NCBI GenBank assembly: GCA_034231615.1
Contig: CM067299.1
Span: 14,375,863 to 14,439,862 of the forward strand
DNA: 64,000 bases
Source: Meghimatium bilineatum
Taxonomy: Eukaryota; Mollusca; Gastropoda; Stylommatophora; Philomycidae
Direction of reading: 5' to 3'
Below, one piece after another: positions 4,934 through 61,360 of this stretch (position 1 is its first letter; the number at the start of each line of letters is the position of its first letter). The notes beneath the pieces are model-generated. The model did no database searches. It saw only the letters and a list, made by a program, of their open reading frames with translations, and was not told the origin of the DNA. A program made the position numbers and the translations under genes.

Positions 4934-5833
4934 ATAGATATATGTTCAACATCTACGCAGAAAGTATAATGAGGAATGTGAGAGAAGACATACACAACGC
5001 TGACTATCACGCTTTAAACATAGGTGGATTCCTAATCACGGAACTACGCTACGCAGACGACACAGTACTTCTTTCAAACGATATAAAGGGATTGGAACAA
5101 CTAATCAAGAACACAAAGAAATATAGCGAAGCACAAAATCTGTATTTAAACATGCAGAAAACAAAAATCATGTCAACAGATATAACAACACAACAACCAA
5201 AAATCAGAATAGACGATACCGAGATAGAATGTGTGGATAAATTTGAATACTTAGGAGCAAACATCAACGGTGCAGGAGACTACATGGCAGAAATAAGGAA
5301 GTGATTGGCAATAGCATATTGCAAAATAACACGACTGAAAAACATATGGAAAAACAACAAAATAGAAACGAAAGTGCTAATGTTACAAACTTTTATTTTT
5401 CCGGTTGCAACATACGGCTGTGAAACATGGACTCTAAGTAAAACAGCGGCAAAGAGGATCAACGCCTTCGAGCTGAAATTCTACATGAAGATAATTAGAA
5501 TATCATGGAAGGATAAAATCAGAAACTCAGATATTATAAACACATTGAATATTCCAGAGTTTTGGTTACTAAACACAATAACAAAAAGAAAACTACGCCT
5601 GTCTGGTCATATAAAGAGACACAACTGTTTAGAAAGACAAATAATGGAGGGATGAGTACCTGGGAGAGGAGAAAGGGCAGACCAAGAAGACGATGGACTG
5701 ACGACATTAAAGATAACATGAATACATCGCTAGAAAATGCAAGCAACACCGCCCAAGACAGAGAGAGGTTCAGAGAGTTCATTGGGAAGACAACGTTCTG
5801 GAAGTAATATGTCACATGACACCATAGATATAT
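4934..5833 (+). mobile_element. LINE family A (RTE-like), 5'-truncated, with 10-bp TSD
   Basis: Direct repeats ATAGATATAT at 4934-4943 and 5824-5833 bracket an 880-bp insertion. Its frames encode FNIYAESIMRNV, LRYADDTVLLS (YADD catalytic box), FEYLGANI, ATYGCETWTLSKTAAKRINAFELK, and a basic tail GRPRRRWTDDIKDNMN ending TTFWK. It is the carboxyl half of a reverse transcriptase only; the 5' truncation is typical of target-primed reverse transcription. A stop at 5302 and a frameshift near 5600 break the frame. By eye about 95 percent identical to 18086-18935. Confidence 0.9.
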
Positions 5834-6160
5834 AATGTATAATAATATATACTAGATGTAATATCTTGTGTTCATGGCCGTAGATATGATAACATTAAAG
5901 GGCGGGGGGGGGGATGACAATAAAAACAGGTTTATTCGTTTTCATTGTGTAAATTTCATCGCCGGTATTTGACGGGGAATTTGAAGAAAGTTTTGCGAAA
6001 AATAACGAAGGGAAGAGTTTTTACATATCTCTTGGCGAAGTTCCTCTAGTTTTACAGTGTCGTATTAACATTCGATAGAAAGGGGGTATTGACACATAAA
6101 ACTGGTCTGTTTTAAGTTGTTGGGAAGCACATATAAATCTATGGGTTTTATTATGTATGT
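5834..6160. other. unassigned spacer with a poly-G run
   Basis: A run of about 11 G begins near 5903. Nothing else recognised. Confidence 0.35.
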
Positions 6161-6861
6161 ATTTAGATTTATACAGAAGTAATGGTTATTTCAAAGAAAC
6201 AAAATAACACACCTTGCAAGATAATAGTGAATGATATAGTATTAAAACAGGTCCACCAATTCAAATATCTAGGTACAATGATTACAGCAGATGGAAGAAG
6301 TTCAACAGAATAAGATGCAGAATAGGACAGGCAAAAACAACATTCAGAAAAATGAAAAATATACTGTGTAATAAGACCTTGTCATTAGAGGTGAGAAAGA
6401 GAGTTCTGCAGTGCTATATAACCCCTATACTATCATATCGGTGCGAGTCTTGGACAATAAGCAAACTGGAAAGTGGGAGATTGGAGGCAACAGAGATGTG
6501 GTTCTACAGAAGAATGCTGAGAATACTATGGACTGCCAGAAAAACTAATGTAGAGGTGTTGAAAGAGTTAAATGCGAAACGGACCTTAATCAGCAATATA
6601 AGAAAAAGGCAATCTTCTTTTTTTTTTAGCCACTTCATGAGACAGGCAGGTTTAGAGAACATAATCACAACAGGCAAGACTGAAGGCACTAGAGACAGAG
6701 GGCGACAACGTGAGAAAATATTAGACAGTTTGACAACCTAGCACGGCAAGGAAACAGCAACGACGTTGATACATAATACTGTGGACAGAGAGCTGTGGAG
6801 AGCCATGAACGCCTACGCCACTCGGCATGGCACCTGATGATGATGATGATTTAGCTTTATA
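6161..6861 (+). mobile_element. LINE family B (RTE/BovB-like) 3' fragment with 13-bp TSD
   Basis: ATTTAGATTTATA at 6161-6173 and ATTTAGCTTTATA at 6849-6861 (one mismatch) flank about 675 bp. The insert starts inside the reverse transcriptase thumb (VMVISKK region) and runs to the element's end, which carries CCTGATGATGATGATG. It encodes CNKTLSLEVRKRVLQCYI, CESWTISKLESGRLEATE and RMLRILWTARKTNVEVLKEL. Closely related to 13612-14273, differing by a few percent, so fairly young. Confidence 0.9.
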
Positions 6862-11642: not shown

Positions 11643-14285
11643 ATGATTGGTCCAGAAACAGGAAAAACGGTGAAGGGTTTTATGGCAATATTAGATCGGG
11701 TAATATTAGTTTAACAGGAAAACCGTTGGATATCAACATTGTGCAGGCATATGCACCTACATCAAGCAGTTCAGAGGAGGAAATCGAAATTTTCTATTAA
11801 GATTTAGAAATCGCATTGAAACAGTGTAAAAATCAGGAAGTAACTATAGTAATGGGGGACTTTAACGCAAAAGTAGGTGAAACAGAAATAAAAGATGTGA
11901 CAGGAAGATTTGGTTTACGAACTAAGAATGAAAGAGGTGATTTATTGATAGAGTGGGCACAGGCACATAATTTAATAATAGGGAATACATGGTTCAAGCA
12001 ACATCCAAGAAGGCTGTGTACATGGATTAGCCCAGGTGATAATACTCGGAACCAAATTGATTACATTTTAGTCTCTAAAAGACATAGAAACAGCATTAGA
12101 TCTATGAAAACAAGGCCAGGTGCTGACTGCAACAGTGATCATATACTACTGGTAGCGAAATTGTGTATAAGATTAAAGAAGATCAAGAGAGCACCAAGGA
12201 ATATGAAATTAGATTTAGCTTTATTGAAATAAGATGCTGACATTAAAGAAAGATACAACATAATTGTACAAAATAGATACAATGCCATTGCAAAGATTCA
12301 GAGTATTGAAGATCAATAGAACATGCTAAAACAGTCGATAAACCAAACATCTAAAGAGATAATACCAAAAGTAAAACATAGGCCTACATCAAAACAAAAA
12401 TGGATGACAGAAGAAATATTAGAATTGATGAGCACCAGAAGGAAAAATAAACACAAGATAGTGGAATATCAGAAAATACATAAGGAGATACGAGAGAAAT
12501 GCAAAATAGCAAAAGAAAGCTGGCTGAACAAGAAATGCACAGAAATAGAAATGCATTACAACCAAGATACAACATTACTATAAAAGAAAATTGAGATGAT
12601 AACAGGAAAGAGAAAGTAAACAGTTACAGGGTGTCTAAAATATAAGACAGGGCAGGTATTAATAGGAATAGATCACATGGTACAGAGATAGTCAGAATAT
12701 ATTAAAGAACTTTATGAGGACAATAGACCAGAAATAAACATACAAGATAACGGCGAGGGTCCATCAATACTCACAGCAGAAGTAAGGGAGGCACTAAGAC
12801 ACATGAAATATGGCAAAGCCCCAGGTCCAGACAATATCACATTAGAAGAATTAGCAGCTTTAGATGACTTTGGAGTTTAAAATATCACAAAATTGCTGAA
12901 TGACATATATAACAGCGGAAACATACCCGATGACTTAATGAGATCCATATTCATAGCATTAACTAAGAAACCAGGGACCACCGAATGTGAAGAACACCGT
13001 ACAATCAGACTCACGAGCAAAATAACCAAAATACTGCTCAGAATCATCATGAAGAGAGTGAGAAACAAAATAAAACCAGAAATAAGTCCAGAACAATGTG
13101 GATTTGTAGAAGGCAAAGGCACCAACAATGCGATTTATATATTGAAAACACTAATAGAGAGGTCTATAGAGGTAAAAACAGATCTGTACCTCTGTTTTAT
13201 AGACTACACTAAAGCTTTTGACAAAGTTAAACATAGCAAAATTATACACATGCTAGAGAATCTGAACATTGACAGCAAGGATTTAAGAATAATCAAGAAC
13301 ATGTACTGGCAACAAACAGCAGCAATAAGAGTAGGAAAGCAATTTGGCCCTTTTCAACAAATAAAACAAGGAGTCAGACAGGGATGCGTGCTTTCACCAG
13401 ACCTGTTCTCTCTATACAGTGAAAACATATTGCGTGCAATAGTAGATATCCCAGGAATATCAGTGGAAGGACATAACATAAATAATTTGAGATATGTGGA
13501 TGACACTGTTCTGATTGCAAAAAGTGAGGAAGACCTTCAAAACTTAATTAAAGTAGTAGTCACAGAAAGCAAAGAGAAAGGCTTCATCCTAAATATCAAG
13601 AAAACAGAAGTAATGGTTATTTCAAAGAAAGAAAATAACACACCTTGCAAGATAATAGTGAATGATATAGTATTAAAACAGGAACATCAATTCAAATATC
13701 TAGGTACAATTATAACAGCAGATGGAAGAAGTTCAACAGAAATAAGATGCAGAATAGATCAGGCAAAAACAACATTCAGAAAAATGAAAATATACTGTGT
13801 AATATGACCTTGTCATTAGAGGTGAGAAAGAGAGTTCTGCAGTGCTATATAACCCCTATACTAACATATTTGTGCGAGTCTTGGACAATAAACAAACTGG
13901 AAAGTGGGAGATTTGAGGCAACAGAGATGTGGTTCTACAGAAGAATGCTGAGAATACCATGGACTGCCAGAAAAACTAATGTGAGGTGTTAAAAGAGTTA
14001 AATGCGAAACGGACCTTAATCAACAATATAAGAAAAAGGCAATCTTCTTTTTTTTGGCCACTTCTTGAGACAGGCAGGTTTAGAGAACATAATCACAACA
14101 GGCAAGATTGAAGGCACCATAGACAGAGGGCGACAACGTGAGAAAATATTAGACAGTTTGACAACATGGGACGGCGAAGAAACAACAACTACTTTGATAC
14201 ATAATACTGTGGACAGAGAGCTGTGGAGAGCCATGACCACCTACGCCACCCAGCATGGCACCTGATGATGATGATGATTGGTCCA
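11643..14285 (+). mobile_element. near-complete RTE/BovB-like LINE (family B) with 12-bp TSD
   Basis: ATGATTGGTCCA occurs at 11643-11654 and 14274-14285, bracketing about 2.6 kb. Frames give, in order, the apurinic-like endonuclease (VQAYAPTS, GDFNAKVG, CTWISPGDNTRNQIDYIL, PGADCNSDHILL with the catalytic Asp-His), a linker, and reverse transcriptase ([70 protein letters not shown]). The thumb and tail follow from 13750 (CESWTINKLESGRFEATE, RIPWTARKTN). The 5' end is cut inside the endonuclease. In-frame stops occur at about 11798, 12230, 12583 and 12878, with frameshifts near 13795 and 13982. The 3' end carries TGATGATGATG. Layout and motifs closely follow vertebrate BovB. Inactive but the best family reference here. 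Confidence 0.93.
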
Positions 14286-18085: not shown

Positions 18086-18935
18086 TTTTGGCGGAAGACC
18101 TACACAACGCTGACTATCACGCTTTAAACATAGGTGGATTCCTAATCCCGGAACTACGCTACGCAGACGACACAGTGCTTCTTTCAAACGATATAAAGGG
18201 ATTGGAACAACTAATCAAGAACACAAAGAAATATAGCGAAGCACAAAATTTGTATTTAAACACGCAGAAAACAAAAATCATGTCCACAGATATAACAACA
18301 CAACAACCAAAAATCAGAATAGACAATACCGAGATAGAATGTGTGGATAAATTTGAATACTTAGGAACAAACATCAACGGTGCATGAGACTGCATGGCAG
18401 AAATAAGGAAGAGATTGGCAATGGCATATTGCAAAATAACACGGCTGAAAAACATATGGAAAAACAACAAAATAGAAACGAAAGTGCTAATGTTACGAAC
18501 TTTTATTTTTCCGGTTGCAACATATGGATGTGAAACATGGACTCTAAGTAAAACAGCGGCAAAGAAGATCAACGCATTCGAGCTGAAATGCTACAGAAAG
18601 ATACTTAGAATATCATGGAAGGATAAAATCATAAACTCAGATATTATAAACACACTGAATATTCCAGAGTGTTGGTTACTAAACACAATAACAAAAAGAA
18701 AACGACGCCCGTTTGGTCATATAAAGAGACATATTTGTTTAGAAAGACAAATAATGGAGGGAAGAGTACCTGGGAAGAGGAGAAGGGGCAGACCAAGAAG
18801 ACGATGGACTGACGACATTAAAGATAATATGAATACATCGCTAGAAAATGCAAGCCACATCGCCCAAGACAGAGAGAGGTTCAGAGAGTTCATTGGGAAG
18901 ACAACGTTCTGGAAGGAATACGTCACATGACATCA
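18086..18935 (+). mobile_element. LINE family A, young 5'-truncated copy
   Basis: A 99-codon frame then a 178-codon frame encode LRYADDTVLLS, FEYLGTNINGA, ATYGCETWTLSKTAAKKINAF, PGKRRRGRPRRRWTDDIK and the natural end TTFWKEYVT. The two frames are separated by a single stop at 18386-18388. This copy preserves the intact carboxyl terminus and 3' end of the family (TCACATGACATCATCATC). The 5' junction lies at about 18086 after CATTTTGGCG; no clear TSD seen. Confidence 0.9.
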
Positions 18936-19474
18936 TCATCCCGTGTCGCCTCCGTATTGAAGGATGATTACAACAGACACCCAAAATATCATGTCTGTTG
19001 CTGTTGTGGTGCACTCTGCAAGACTATAAACTGTCAATCTCATGACACTTCCATCCCATATGTATCTGACAAATTCATAAACAACGGCTCTCAACTACTC
19101 TTTCAAGTAATGCCTTCAATGAGTATCATGTCTTTTTAATGTCCAAAATATTTTACATTTTATATTGTTTATTTCTTTTATTTTTTTTTCATACGTAGTT
19201 TTGTCATAATTTCTTTGTTCTTCTTACTCTCTTTCAATGAAGTTATTCCTACTCATCTATGTATCCTTACCGCAATGGCATCAATTGTGACTTCTAGTTG
19301 TATGTTACTTATCAACGTTTCTCAACTATACATTAACATCCCAACTTATTTATCAAATGACTTTTTTGCCACTTTAAACTACGAAAAAAAAAACAATTAA
19401 AGCTTCACCTTAAACTTTCCTTAGTCACCTCTTCAGACATACATAACAACCCTTATTGTTCTTCTCTGTTCTTC
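18936..19474. other. unassigned stretch
   Basis: Pyrimidine-rich on the plus strand; no gene supported. Confidence 0.3.
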
Positions 19475-25292: not shown

Positions 25293-26432
25293 TCAAATGG
25301 CGGTGGAGAAGGCTGTTGTACATGTCTCAGAAATATGTCCACCGTTTGTTGAAACCATTGTGTAATTGTTGTCCCTTTCTCTCCTAGATGCTACGCTTCT
25401 GCAGAATTGTAGTTTTCCATTTAATGTGACCAAAAATATCACTTCCTTTCGAAAATGTTTTCCAGTGACAAAGTAAATAAAACAATAACAGGCATAATGA
25501 GAAACACAGATAACCTCAATCACTTTTCGTATGTCTAAATATGTAAACAACTTAGACCAGGTTTTGTCATTATGAATTTGCTCCTCAGACATGTAATTGT
25601 TTCCATTTGGGAACAGAGGCTGCAAGCAAACAACGATGGTTGCACTGAGCTGCGTAATGATCAAATAGAAAGACACCGCAAGAAGTGTAACAGTAGATGC
25701 CGTGTTATTACCGGTTCTACTCTGCTGACGCTTCATAATATCGTTTTTTGATATCTTAAATATTTCTCTCAAAACTAGAATGTTAAAAGCAAGTACAATA
25801 AGAGGAACGATTCCAAAAGCAAAGATATCGGTTATCCAGGTCCAGATGTTCCAGAAACTCATGTTATCGTTGATTGCAGCTTCGACTCTGACGTTACACG
25901 TGTTCTCTGATGGATTGAATGTCCAGATATAAATCTGAGCCGAGGCAAGAGTTACTGAGAAGATGGTGAGAAACATCACGATTATTCCAGCTCTCTTAAC
26001 GGTGCAGAGTTTCTCCTTGAGAAATGGATGGCATACAGCAACGTAGCGTTCTATTGTGAATCCCAGAACAAGCATTGTAGACAAGTACTGGGGTACGTAG
26101 TATAGAAAGTGAAAAATCTCACAAATAATGTGGTCGTTGTAAACATTAATCCCCCAGGCGATGTGTAAGATCAGAAGCAGGTGTAAGAATAGGAAAAATA
26201 AATCAGAAATGGACAAGGCTCCTAGGTAAATGGCTGAAGAGTTGTTCCGACGCATACGCTGCCCCAACCAAACAATTGCTGATATAGGATTCCCTATGAA
26301 ACCAATGGCATACCATATAGGGGACATGATGCGTTCCATCATCGGTCCTGCAGGGGCGAATTCCTCCAAAAAGGATGCCCTGGTTTGATACTTCTCAAAT
26401 ATATTAAAACCATCCACTGTAGTGTTGTTCAT
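25293..26432 (-). CDS. rhodopsin-class (class A) G-protein-coupled receptor, peptide-receptor-like
   Basis: 379 residues, seven hydrophobic segments at about 33-57, 66-90, 102-127, 147-170, 198-223, 246-270 and 299-323. Family marks: GN in TM1 (GFIGNPIS), SISD in TM2, Cys104 at the top of TM3 and Cys179 in ECL2 for the conserved disulphide, ERY (128-130) for DRY. Deviations: TM6 lacks CWxP, and TM7 has HYACYCFIY where NPxxY is expected. N-glycosylation sites NNT/NTT lie at the start. The tail ends STAI, a possible PDZ ligand. It would sit in the plasma membrane and signal through heterotrimeric G proteins. Ligand unknown; general appearance is that of invertebrate neuropeptide receptors (FMRFamide or TRH receptor-like), and a molluscan chemosensory-type role is possible. 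The coding region is one exon. Met1 is preceded by ATACATC and a splice acceptor at 26440-26442. Frame is intact. Confidence 0.9.
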   Translation of the reverse strand: MNNTTVDGFNIFEKYQTRASFLEEFAPAGPMMERIMSPIWYAIGFIGNPISAIVWLGQRMRRNNSSAIYLGALSISDLFFLFLHLLLILHIAWGINVYNDHIICEIFHFLYYVPQYLSTMLVLGFTIERYVAVCHPFLKEKLCTVKRAGIIVMFLTIFSVTLASAQIYIWTFNPSENTCNVRVEAAINDNMSFWNIWTWITDIFAFGIVPLIVLAFNILVLREIFKISKNDIMKRQQSRTGNNTASTVTLLAVSFYLIITQLSATIVVCLQPLFPNGNNYMSEEQIHNDKTWSKLFTYLDIRKVIEVICVSHYACYCFIYFVTGKHFRKEVIFLVTLNGKLQFCRSVASRRERDNNYTMVSTNGGHISETCTTAFSTAI

Positions 26433-35849: not shown

Positions 35850-36610
35850 CCTGTTCTTCATCTTCTTCTTTCACTTTTAAATAAATTCAGTAAGAGTAAT
35901 CTTGTAATTTGAGTTGGAGAGCGTGAAATATTGTGTTGTGCTAGATTCAGAGAGGATCTGTGTTATTTGCGCCTTTCAGTCCAAAACACCCGATTACTGC
36001 ATAACAGTACTTTTCATCATCGTTTACTTCTTCTCGTTCGCAGTTTAACATTTCTACACAGCAAGTCCAGTTTCTTAATAAATGTATCCGTCTCTGTGGG
36101 CCACTGCTCATCCCTTAACTGGTTTACTGCAATGCACTCTTGCAGGATATGTTTAGCGGTCTGTGTCGCCTGCAAACATGGACACAGAGGTCATGTAACC
36201 AGTCTTATTCTATTTAAGTGGCTGTAGTCTGTTGTATCGTCCGGCTCTGTGGCGAAGTGATACATAGCGCGTCTCTGGCGGCAAAGGTACCGAGTTTAAT
36301 CCCCGCCACAATTGTGCATCCGGACCGTTCAGAAAGCAATGGCAAACTACTGAAACGTATTTATATTGCCTAGAAAATCACCACAGCCAACAAATGCTGG
36401 GTTGATAGCTAAGTCCTGTAAAGTATATGCTACCAATTTTAGCCTGTTGTATCCTGTCATGATTCGGAAGATGATAACTTGCTCAGCTCTGTCAAGATAG
36501 TGATAGTTGTCTTTTGGGTGGTCGAATTTTCTAATAGTTTTGATGACGGTATTCTTCTCTTGGTAGATAAAAGTCTTTACTATTTCTGTTCCTGTGTTCT
36601 TTTAAACACA
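35850..36610 (-). mobile_element. LINE family F, RNase H tail, split by a SINE
   Basis: On the minus strand, TVIKTIRKFDHPKDNYHYL and EQVIIFRIMTGYNRL (36610-36454) lie on one side of the SINE, and CLQATQTAKHILQECIAVNQ, RDEQWPTETDTF on the other. Together they match the conserved end of RNase H-bearing LINEs (QVIIFRLRTGHNRL, CPCG..QT.EHILQ.C, WP). The 3' UTR follows to about 35850 and resembles the family F ends. Confidence 0.85.
36229..36453 (+). mobile_element. tRNA-derived SINE-1, full copy with 10-bp TSD
   Basis: CTGTTGTATC at 36229-36238 and 36444-36453 bracket a 205-bp SINE. The head has an RNA polymerase III A box (TGGCGAAGTGA) and B box (GAGTTTAATCC); the body carries AAAGCAATGGCAAACTACTG and ends ATGCTACCAATTTTA. 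It interrupts LINE F. The best reference copy of the family. Confidence 0.92.
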
Positions 36611-53779: not shown

Positions 53780-54180
53780 ACTTGATGTATCAAAATTCTT
53801 GAGATTAACGGGAATTGAACCAGTCCGTTCAGCGGCACCAAATCGCCTAGCAACTATTGAACACGCGTTCTTCCGTACTTGACTAACCGCATCCCCAAAA
53901 AAAGATGCGATTTCATCAAGCCTTTCAAACCGTGCACAGAAAGTCACCAGAACGGACCGATCAAGATCCGTTCTGGTGACTTTCTGTGCACGGTTTGAAA
54001 GGCTTGATGAAATCGCATCTTTTTTTGGAGATGCGGTTAGTCAAGTACGGAAGAAAGCGTGTTCAATAGTTGCTAGGCGATTTGGTGCCGCTGAACGGAC
54101 TGGTTCAATTCTCGTTAATCTCAAGAATTTTAAAAAAAATTGTCCTCTGGCTTCCTATTTAAATTTACTTGATGTATCAA
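53780..54180. mobile_element. 165-bp near-perfect palindrome between 14-bp direct repeats
   Basis: ACTTGATGTATCAA at 53780-53793 and 54167-54180 is a likely TSD. Inside, arms 53792-53956 and 53967-54131 are inverted copies differing at about four positions, with a 10-bp spacer CCGATCAAGA. Each arm carries the same 60-odd codon frame (CARFERLDEIASFF, ACSIVARRFGAAERTGS) and a GGTTCAATTCC block that fits a polymerase III B box. The right arm is followed by TTTTAAAAAAAATT. Product and family not recognised. Confidence 0.88.
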
Positions 54181-61126: not shown

Positions 61127-61360
61127 GTAGCTTCACTTAAAAAAAAAATTGGTAGCATATCCTATCCAGGACGTAGCTATCAACCCAGCAATTGTTAGCT
61201 GTGGTGATTTTCTAGGCAACATAAATACGTTCAGTAGGTTGCCATTGCTTTCTGAACGGTTTGGATGCACAATTGCCTGTGGTGAGGATCGAACTCGGTA
61301 CCTTTGCCGTCACAGACTGTACCACTTCGCCACAGAGCCGGACAGTCGTAGCGTCACTTA
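61127..61360 (-). mobile_element. SINE-1, full copy with 13-bp TSD
   Basis: GTAGCTTCACTTA at 61127-61139 and GTAGCGTCACTTA at 61348-61360 flank 208 bp. On the minus strand: CCGGCTCTGTGGCGAAGTGG head with A box TGGCGAAGTGG, B box GAGTTCGATCC, GAAAGCAATGGCAACCTACT and tail GCTACCAATTTTTTTT. The best polymerase III boxes of the family. Confidence 0.92.

Follow-up and report, generated by a model that had tools for sequence, protein, structure and literature searches.

How does a long, near-perfect palindrome come to lie between two exact direct repeats in an animal genome? This question is raised by a locus at positions 53780–54180 of the 64-kb stretch of DNA analysed here (the window). Its inverted repeat (53792–53956 and 53967–54131) comprises 165 nt per arm, of which 162 match, with mismatches at positions 53811, 53867 and 53894. 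A 10-nt spacer, CCGATCAAGA, separates the arms. An earlier note had described nearly identical arms, a 10-bp spacer and 14-bp flanking repeats, and we confirm that description, to which two details can be added: on the right side only, a 35-nt tail separates the arm from the direct repeat, and the spacer is itself part of the left arm (see below). Our analysis indicates that the palindrome is very probably a single insertion of a non-autonomous retroelement, in which reverse transcription would have been target-primed on both strands and the two cDNAs joined head-to-head. The parts of the locus are collected in the table.

Table. Features of the palindromic locus, in window coordinates; unit positions refer to the 378-bp family unit.
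Feature	Position	Strand	Details
Left target-site duplication copy ACTTGATGTATCAA	53780–53793	+	14 bp; final AA common to the left arm
Secondary (antisense) arm	53792–53966	-	Unit 166–340; from blastn against the 378-bp unit and the seam table; the 10-nt spacer (53957–53966) is its 5'-most part
Primary (sense) arm	53967–54171	+	Unit 176–378, including the tail; from blastn against the unit and the alignment of relatives; the ending ACTTG is common to the right duplication
One-sided 3' tail	54132–54166	+	35 nt; conserved 3' end of the family, TTGTCCTCTGGCTTCCTA...TTTACTTG in relatives
Right target-site duplication copy ACTTGATGTATCAA	54167–54180	+	14 bp
Candidate B-box-like block GGTTCAATTCT	54102–54112	+	Left-arm version GGTTCAATTCC at 53811–53821, - strand

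A scan of the window for inverted repeats (up to 3 mismatches, spacer of at most 30 nt, arms of at least 25 nt) returned four others, all of them AT-type simple repeats, and arms of 25 nt were absent from three randomised versions of the window (first-order Markov). No third copy of ACTTGATGTATCAA with up to 2 mismatches is present in the 64 kb, and elsewhere in the window identical 14-mer pairs spaced 350–420 bp apart occur only within stretches with tandem arrays. An assembly fold is an unlikely source of the palindrome, since its arms differ from each other and the seams differ in other copies.

The palindrome is a member of a dispersed repeat family with a 378-bp unit (GC 0.376). To describe this family, the organism's own assembly (1,612,235,226 bases, 1.61 Gb, in 32 contigs) was searched twice, and one natural 378-bp unit, taken from L047, served as the ruler. 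With the palindrome as query, 40 of 4254 first-look candidates were scored, giving 124 matches; the loci of this first sample are the window and L009–L047. The second query consisted of the unit junction (378|1) and the 5' part; here, 40 of 743 candidates were scored and 18 further loci were read (L068–L085), while L033, whose place was listed in both searches, was counted in the first sample. This amounts to 58 mapped loci, 40 found via the palindrome and 18 via the other part of the unit. Some contain head-to-tail 378-bp repeats, with 2.9 unit copies in L047. The 3' end is common to all 14 loci of one alignment (window and L009–L021), in which flanks, arm ends and seams differ; among 16 copies aligned from L022–L047, many have extra unit sequence upstream of the arm. 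Aligned to the unit, the spacer corresponds to antisense positions 166–175 with one mismatch and is thus part of the left arm. These 10 nt are the distance by which the secondary arm in the window reaches further than the primary.

Inverted pairs account for 27 of the 40 loci in the first sample, next to 7 non-inverted multi-segment loci (multimers, some partial) and 6 single copies, a distribution biased by a query that is itself a palindrome. Among L022–L047, which were matched mainly through one arm at a time, 13 of 26 are inverted. In the second sample, which is biased toward copies of more than one unit because its query needs the unit junction, inverted pairs make up 11 of 18 loci. The earlier note had counted single-arm copies without palindromic ones as evidence against its reading; the genome holds both kinds. 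L013 and L015 are one insertion duplicated, which leaves 26 independent inverted loci in the first sample. These two loci (G000:C1:10142041 and 10417538), approximately 275 kb apart, share both the palindromic insertion and its flanking duplication, TTAAATATTCAA, so that the region was probably copied after insertion.

The orientation of the inverted pairs follows a single rule. All 38 (27/27 in the first sample and 11/11 in the second) have their 5' ends inward, that is, head-to-head, and no tail-to-tail pair occurs among them. In all 38 the two arms also overlap on the unit, by 30–378 nt. Arms exceed 378 nt in 12 of 67 cases in the first sample and in 15 of 29 in the second, with a maximum of 1113, and the template must therefore have been longer than one unit or closed. 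Arm identity within a locus (mean 0.963, 18 pairs) and between loci (0.955), with the partner arm nearest or tied nearest for 10 of 36 arms, is uninformative because a star-like family yields the same result; it neither proves a common RNA for both arms nor dates the insertion.

Sequence beyond the unit was also compared. In 25 of the 26 loci L022–L047 there are no further segments common to at least three other loci (the exception is L022), and 16 of the 18 loci L068–L085 hold none common to at least four (the exceptions are L069 and L073). Each of these three exceptions shares a separate segment with other loci; in L073 it is probably a further piece of the palindromic family. A Penelope-like element would have a reverse-transcriptase ORF joined to its repeat; no larger parent element was seen among L022–L047 and L068–L085. 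At L032 (3006–3157), a strongly diverged (71%) second copy lies near a young one, which suggests older generations of the family.

Flanking duplications mark these copies as insertions. Direct repeats scoring at least 10 were found at 23 of the 40 loci in the first sample (18 of 27 inverted pairs), compared with 1 of 1558 mismatched left/right flanks. The second sample gave 11 of 18 loci (7 of 11 inverted), a count that includes one T-rich repeat at L070, compared with 3 of 306 mismatched flanks. Overall, a strong flanking duplication is present at 25 of the 38 inverted pairs; in 17 of the 40 loci of the first sample and 7 of the 18 of the second, no strong direct repeat was found. The duplications vary in sequence and in length, from about 10 to 20 bp. 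These comparisons bear out the proposal of the earlier note that the locus is a head-to-head dimer within a target-site duplication and not a local inversion.

The same note held that the palindrome had arrived as a finished unit, as it would have if a palindromic master locus had been transcribed, retrotransposed whole and truncated later. We consider such a master very unlikely. In its favour, several seams in the palindrome-query sample lie at similar unit positions (145–185), though that search used the window palindrome itself as query, and two locus pairs, L010/L011 and window/L020, have a common seam class. However, the 20 simple inverted pairs fall into 17 seam classes, their truncation patterns are opposite (14 pairs have a secondary arm that extends more than 3 nt beyond the primary on the 5' side, in 5 the primary is the longer there, and one pair is equal), and the outer secondary ends vary from 247 to 342. 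Seam positions in these counts are blastn alignment ends, with L010, L011 and L014 ambiguous through alignments that overlap by 13–18 nt and the primary arm of L018 aligning poorly near the seam. As seams differ among most loci and most relatives have arm ends of their own, palindromes arise anew at insertion, and this part of the earlier account is not supported.

A palindrome could also form during insertion by snap-back, in which the first-strand cDNA folds back and serves as its own primer for the second strand; one arm is then copied from the other. Such a process accounts for the short loop and for a tail on one side only, and the available part of PMC11371274 documents junctions of this kind for cDNA that R2-type proteins have target-primed. 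A self-copied arm, however, cannot carry unit sequence that is missing from the first arm. At clean seams, the excess of the secondary arm amounts to 38 nt in L013/L015, which count as one event, to 35 nt in L024 and to 94 nt in L026, all of which contradict snap-back. L028, L034 and L045, with secondary arms longer by 49, 171 and 68 nt, also argue against it, though they have 32–49 nt of filler at the seam. In the window, the secondary arm is the longer by 10 nt. The presence in several second arms of unit sequence absent from the first requires two separately primed cDNAs. Snap-back could hold at individual loci with a longer primary arm, such as L016 and L017; as the origin of the family's palindromes it is very unlikely.

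The long terminal inverted repeats, flanking direct repeats and high copy number might equally bring to mind a foldback- or MITE-like DNA transposon, and the earlier note had named a foldback element among its candidates. Yet the duplication length is not fixed, the two ends are inequivalent (approximately 378 and 340, differing by about 35 nt), the family includes single and tandem copies that are not inverted, and the inverted pairs show one polarity throughout. Together, these features make a DNA transposon highly implausible. Least credible is a young hairpin-RNA (endo-siRNA) gene that arose when part of a gene was duplicated in inverted orientation: a transcript of the locus, if made, would be predicted to fold into a long and very stable hairpin (MFE -316.9 kcal/mol, z -42), and hairpin-RNA loci with gene- or TE-derived arms are known in Drosophila (PMC10317233, in part), but the arms are a dispersed repeat lacking the protein matches of a gene fragment (see below), and any role of this kind would follow from the palindrome and not account for its origin.

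Further clues to a target-primed insertion come from the ends of the arms. The 67 RNA-3' ends of the first sample comprise 34 at units 374–378, 19 at 331–347, 5 at 320–325 and 9 elsewhere; the 29 of the second comprise 12, 10, 2 and 5 in the same intervals. Beyond the ends at 374–378, the flank agrees with the downstream unit at 5.09 of 10 bases in the first sample (3.30 when shuffled) and at 4.83 (3.33) in the second, with 0 of 2000 shuffles as high in either. This resemblance suggests that the RNA ran beyond 378 and paired with the target; an endonuclease favouring similar sequence is an alternative. At the 331–347 ends, similarity between flank and RNA is not significant (2.37 against 2.83 shuffled, and 3.40 against 3.04). 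The 378-bp unit of L047 holds CTTGTATAA twice, at 71–79 and, across the common 3' end, at 375–378|1–5. Several 5' ends of long copies lie at unit 66–84, near the CTTGTATAA at 71, which is possibly a priming or stop signal.

We propose the following course for a double-primed insertion. The first cDNA would be target-primed on one nicked strand and start at unit ~378, probably aided by pairing of the target with the RNA just downstream of this point. The second would start on the opposite strand, most commonly at unit ~331–347 across the family and at 340 in the window. Both cDNAs would extend toward the RNA 5' side and halt independently, at units 176 and 166 in the window, and their joining mid-element would produce a head-to-head palindrome within one target-site duplication. 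The template may have been two RNAs (dual priming) or one multimeric or circular RNA. The outer and inner ends of the arms are independent of one another and the secondary arm is the longer in several loci, as is to be expected where both target strands are primed independently. Dual priming is thus deduced from structure, and one multimeric RNA serves as well as two RNAs. We further infer an RNA template, its circular or multimeric form and the action of a LINE- or Penelope-type reverse transcriptase.

A bolder reading, which we regard as possible rather than probable, is that this is a small retroelement that lacks a hammerhead ribozyme, moves as circular RNA and normally integrates by having both target strands primed at once on a closed template. 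If so, a single reaction would give rise both to head-to-head palindromes and to head-to-tail multimers. With half to two-thirds of the sampled copies head-to-head and with arm limits and duplications measurable, the family offers a natural data set on second-strand start in target-primed insertion. It also shows one route to long near-perfect palindromes, and hence to potential double-stranded RNA, in an animal genome.

The arms give no sign of coding capacity. They have no Pfam, NCBIfam or PDB match, and the match of one arm only to PHROG 8557 (E 0.17) is sub-significant. Open frames occur in 2594 of 5000 shuffled arms, so that the frame shared by the arms is at chance level and is no evidence of coding; together with the absent domain and structure matches, this led us to reject a coding arm on present evidence. 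Searches of viral and prokaryotic contigs, phages and plasmids reported no relatives. Of the 16 aligned relatives from L022–L047, 15 retain the block GGTTCAATTCC, which we take to resemble a Pol III B box. No tRNA was found in Rfam at E≤10 or by ARAGORN at default settings, and relaxed ARAGORN calls are matched by calls in 279 of 500 shuffled arms, leaving no tRNA fold above the control. Rfam scans detected no hammerhead ribozyme in five loci (to E 5) or in part of L047 (to E 10); the unit holds one CTGANGA, with no GAAA within the next 60 nt. A microRNA was rejected, as the matches to mir-515 (39.9 bits, cut-off 68) and MIR2646 (30 bits, cut-off 245) lie below the gathering score, and weak matches of this kind are expected of any long hairpin. 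A partial literature search, including portions of PMC13282606 and PMC7761336, returned no published name for the element, from which we do not claim that it is unpublished.

The surrounding window (G000:C2:14375863–14439862) contains fragments of reverse transcriptases as well as an ORF for a rhodopsin-type receptor, which mark the genome as that of an animal, probably a mollusc. LINE copies at 4984–6851, 13604–14279 and 18094–18936 are 94–95% alike over parts, have reverse-transcriptase ORFs and end in a (TGATGA)n-type 3' end, which was not found in the tail of the palindrome. Two tRNA-type SINE-like copies, at 36239–36440 and 61145–61343 (- strand), are 86% alike over 206 aligned nt; blocks in both presumably correspond to an A box and a B box, and the copy at 36239–36440 is flanked by the 10-bp repeat CTGTTGTATC. 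The receptor ORF (25293–26432, - strand) encodes a rhodopsin-type GPCR of 379 aa, and its nearest solved structures by sequence include the thyrotropin-releasing-hormone and ghrelin (growth hormone secretagogue) receptors.

The palindromic family shares traits with several known systems. Like a tRNA-derived SINE, it is short, dispersed and flanked by duplications and has an 11-nt B-box-like block; unlike one, it lacks a tRNA head (Rfam, ARAGORN), forms unit multimers and, in long copies, extends more than 200 nt upstream of that block. The R2-type snap-back junctions likewise place an inverted copy beside a target-primed insertion (PMC11371274, in the part available). Here, the arm limits are independent, so the second arm is no copy of the first.

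The overall build is reminiscent of animal non-LTR retrozymes, which, in the available portion of PMC7229834, are non-autonomous, consist of short units, some hundreds of bp long (378 here), in tandem, have low GC (37.6% here), are dispersed as monomers to multimers and are flanked by target-site duplications of more than 4 bp. The 378-bp unit lies within the range taken for retrozymes (tandem units of roughly 150–450 bp, GC below 50%, dispersed). Retrozymes also have a circular RNA intermediate; for the element here, a circular template is one possibility. However, these elements are defined by a type I hammerhead ribozyme, and head-to-head pairs, typical of the element described here, do not figure in that portion of the account. 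With no hammerhead found, we describe the element as retrozyme-like in build and do not class it as a retrozyme.

Integration resembles twin priming, which is familiar chiefly from L1, or dual priming, which has been put forward as a conjecture (PMC2837659, in the section available). Both start reverse transcription on the two nicked strands and would leave two inverted element pieces in one target-site duplication with the 3' ends outward (PMC2837659, PMC12350158), as in our family. According to PMC2837659, twin priming yields a pair of fragments from which internal sequence is deleted, whereas the arms here overlap on the unit, though on a multimeric RNA the two pieces might not overlap. A figure legend in PMC12350158 already lists human L1 insertions by twin priming that have a duplication where the inversion breaks, so that overlap by itself is not new. 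Overlapping arms are what would be expected of either two RNAs or one multimeric or circular RNA.
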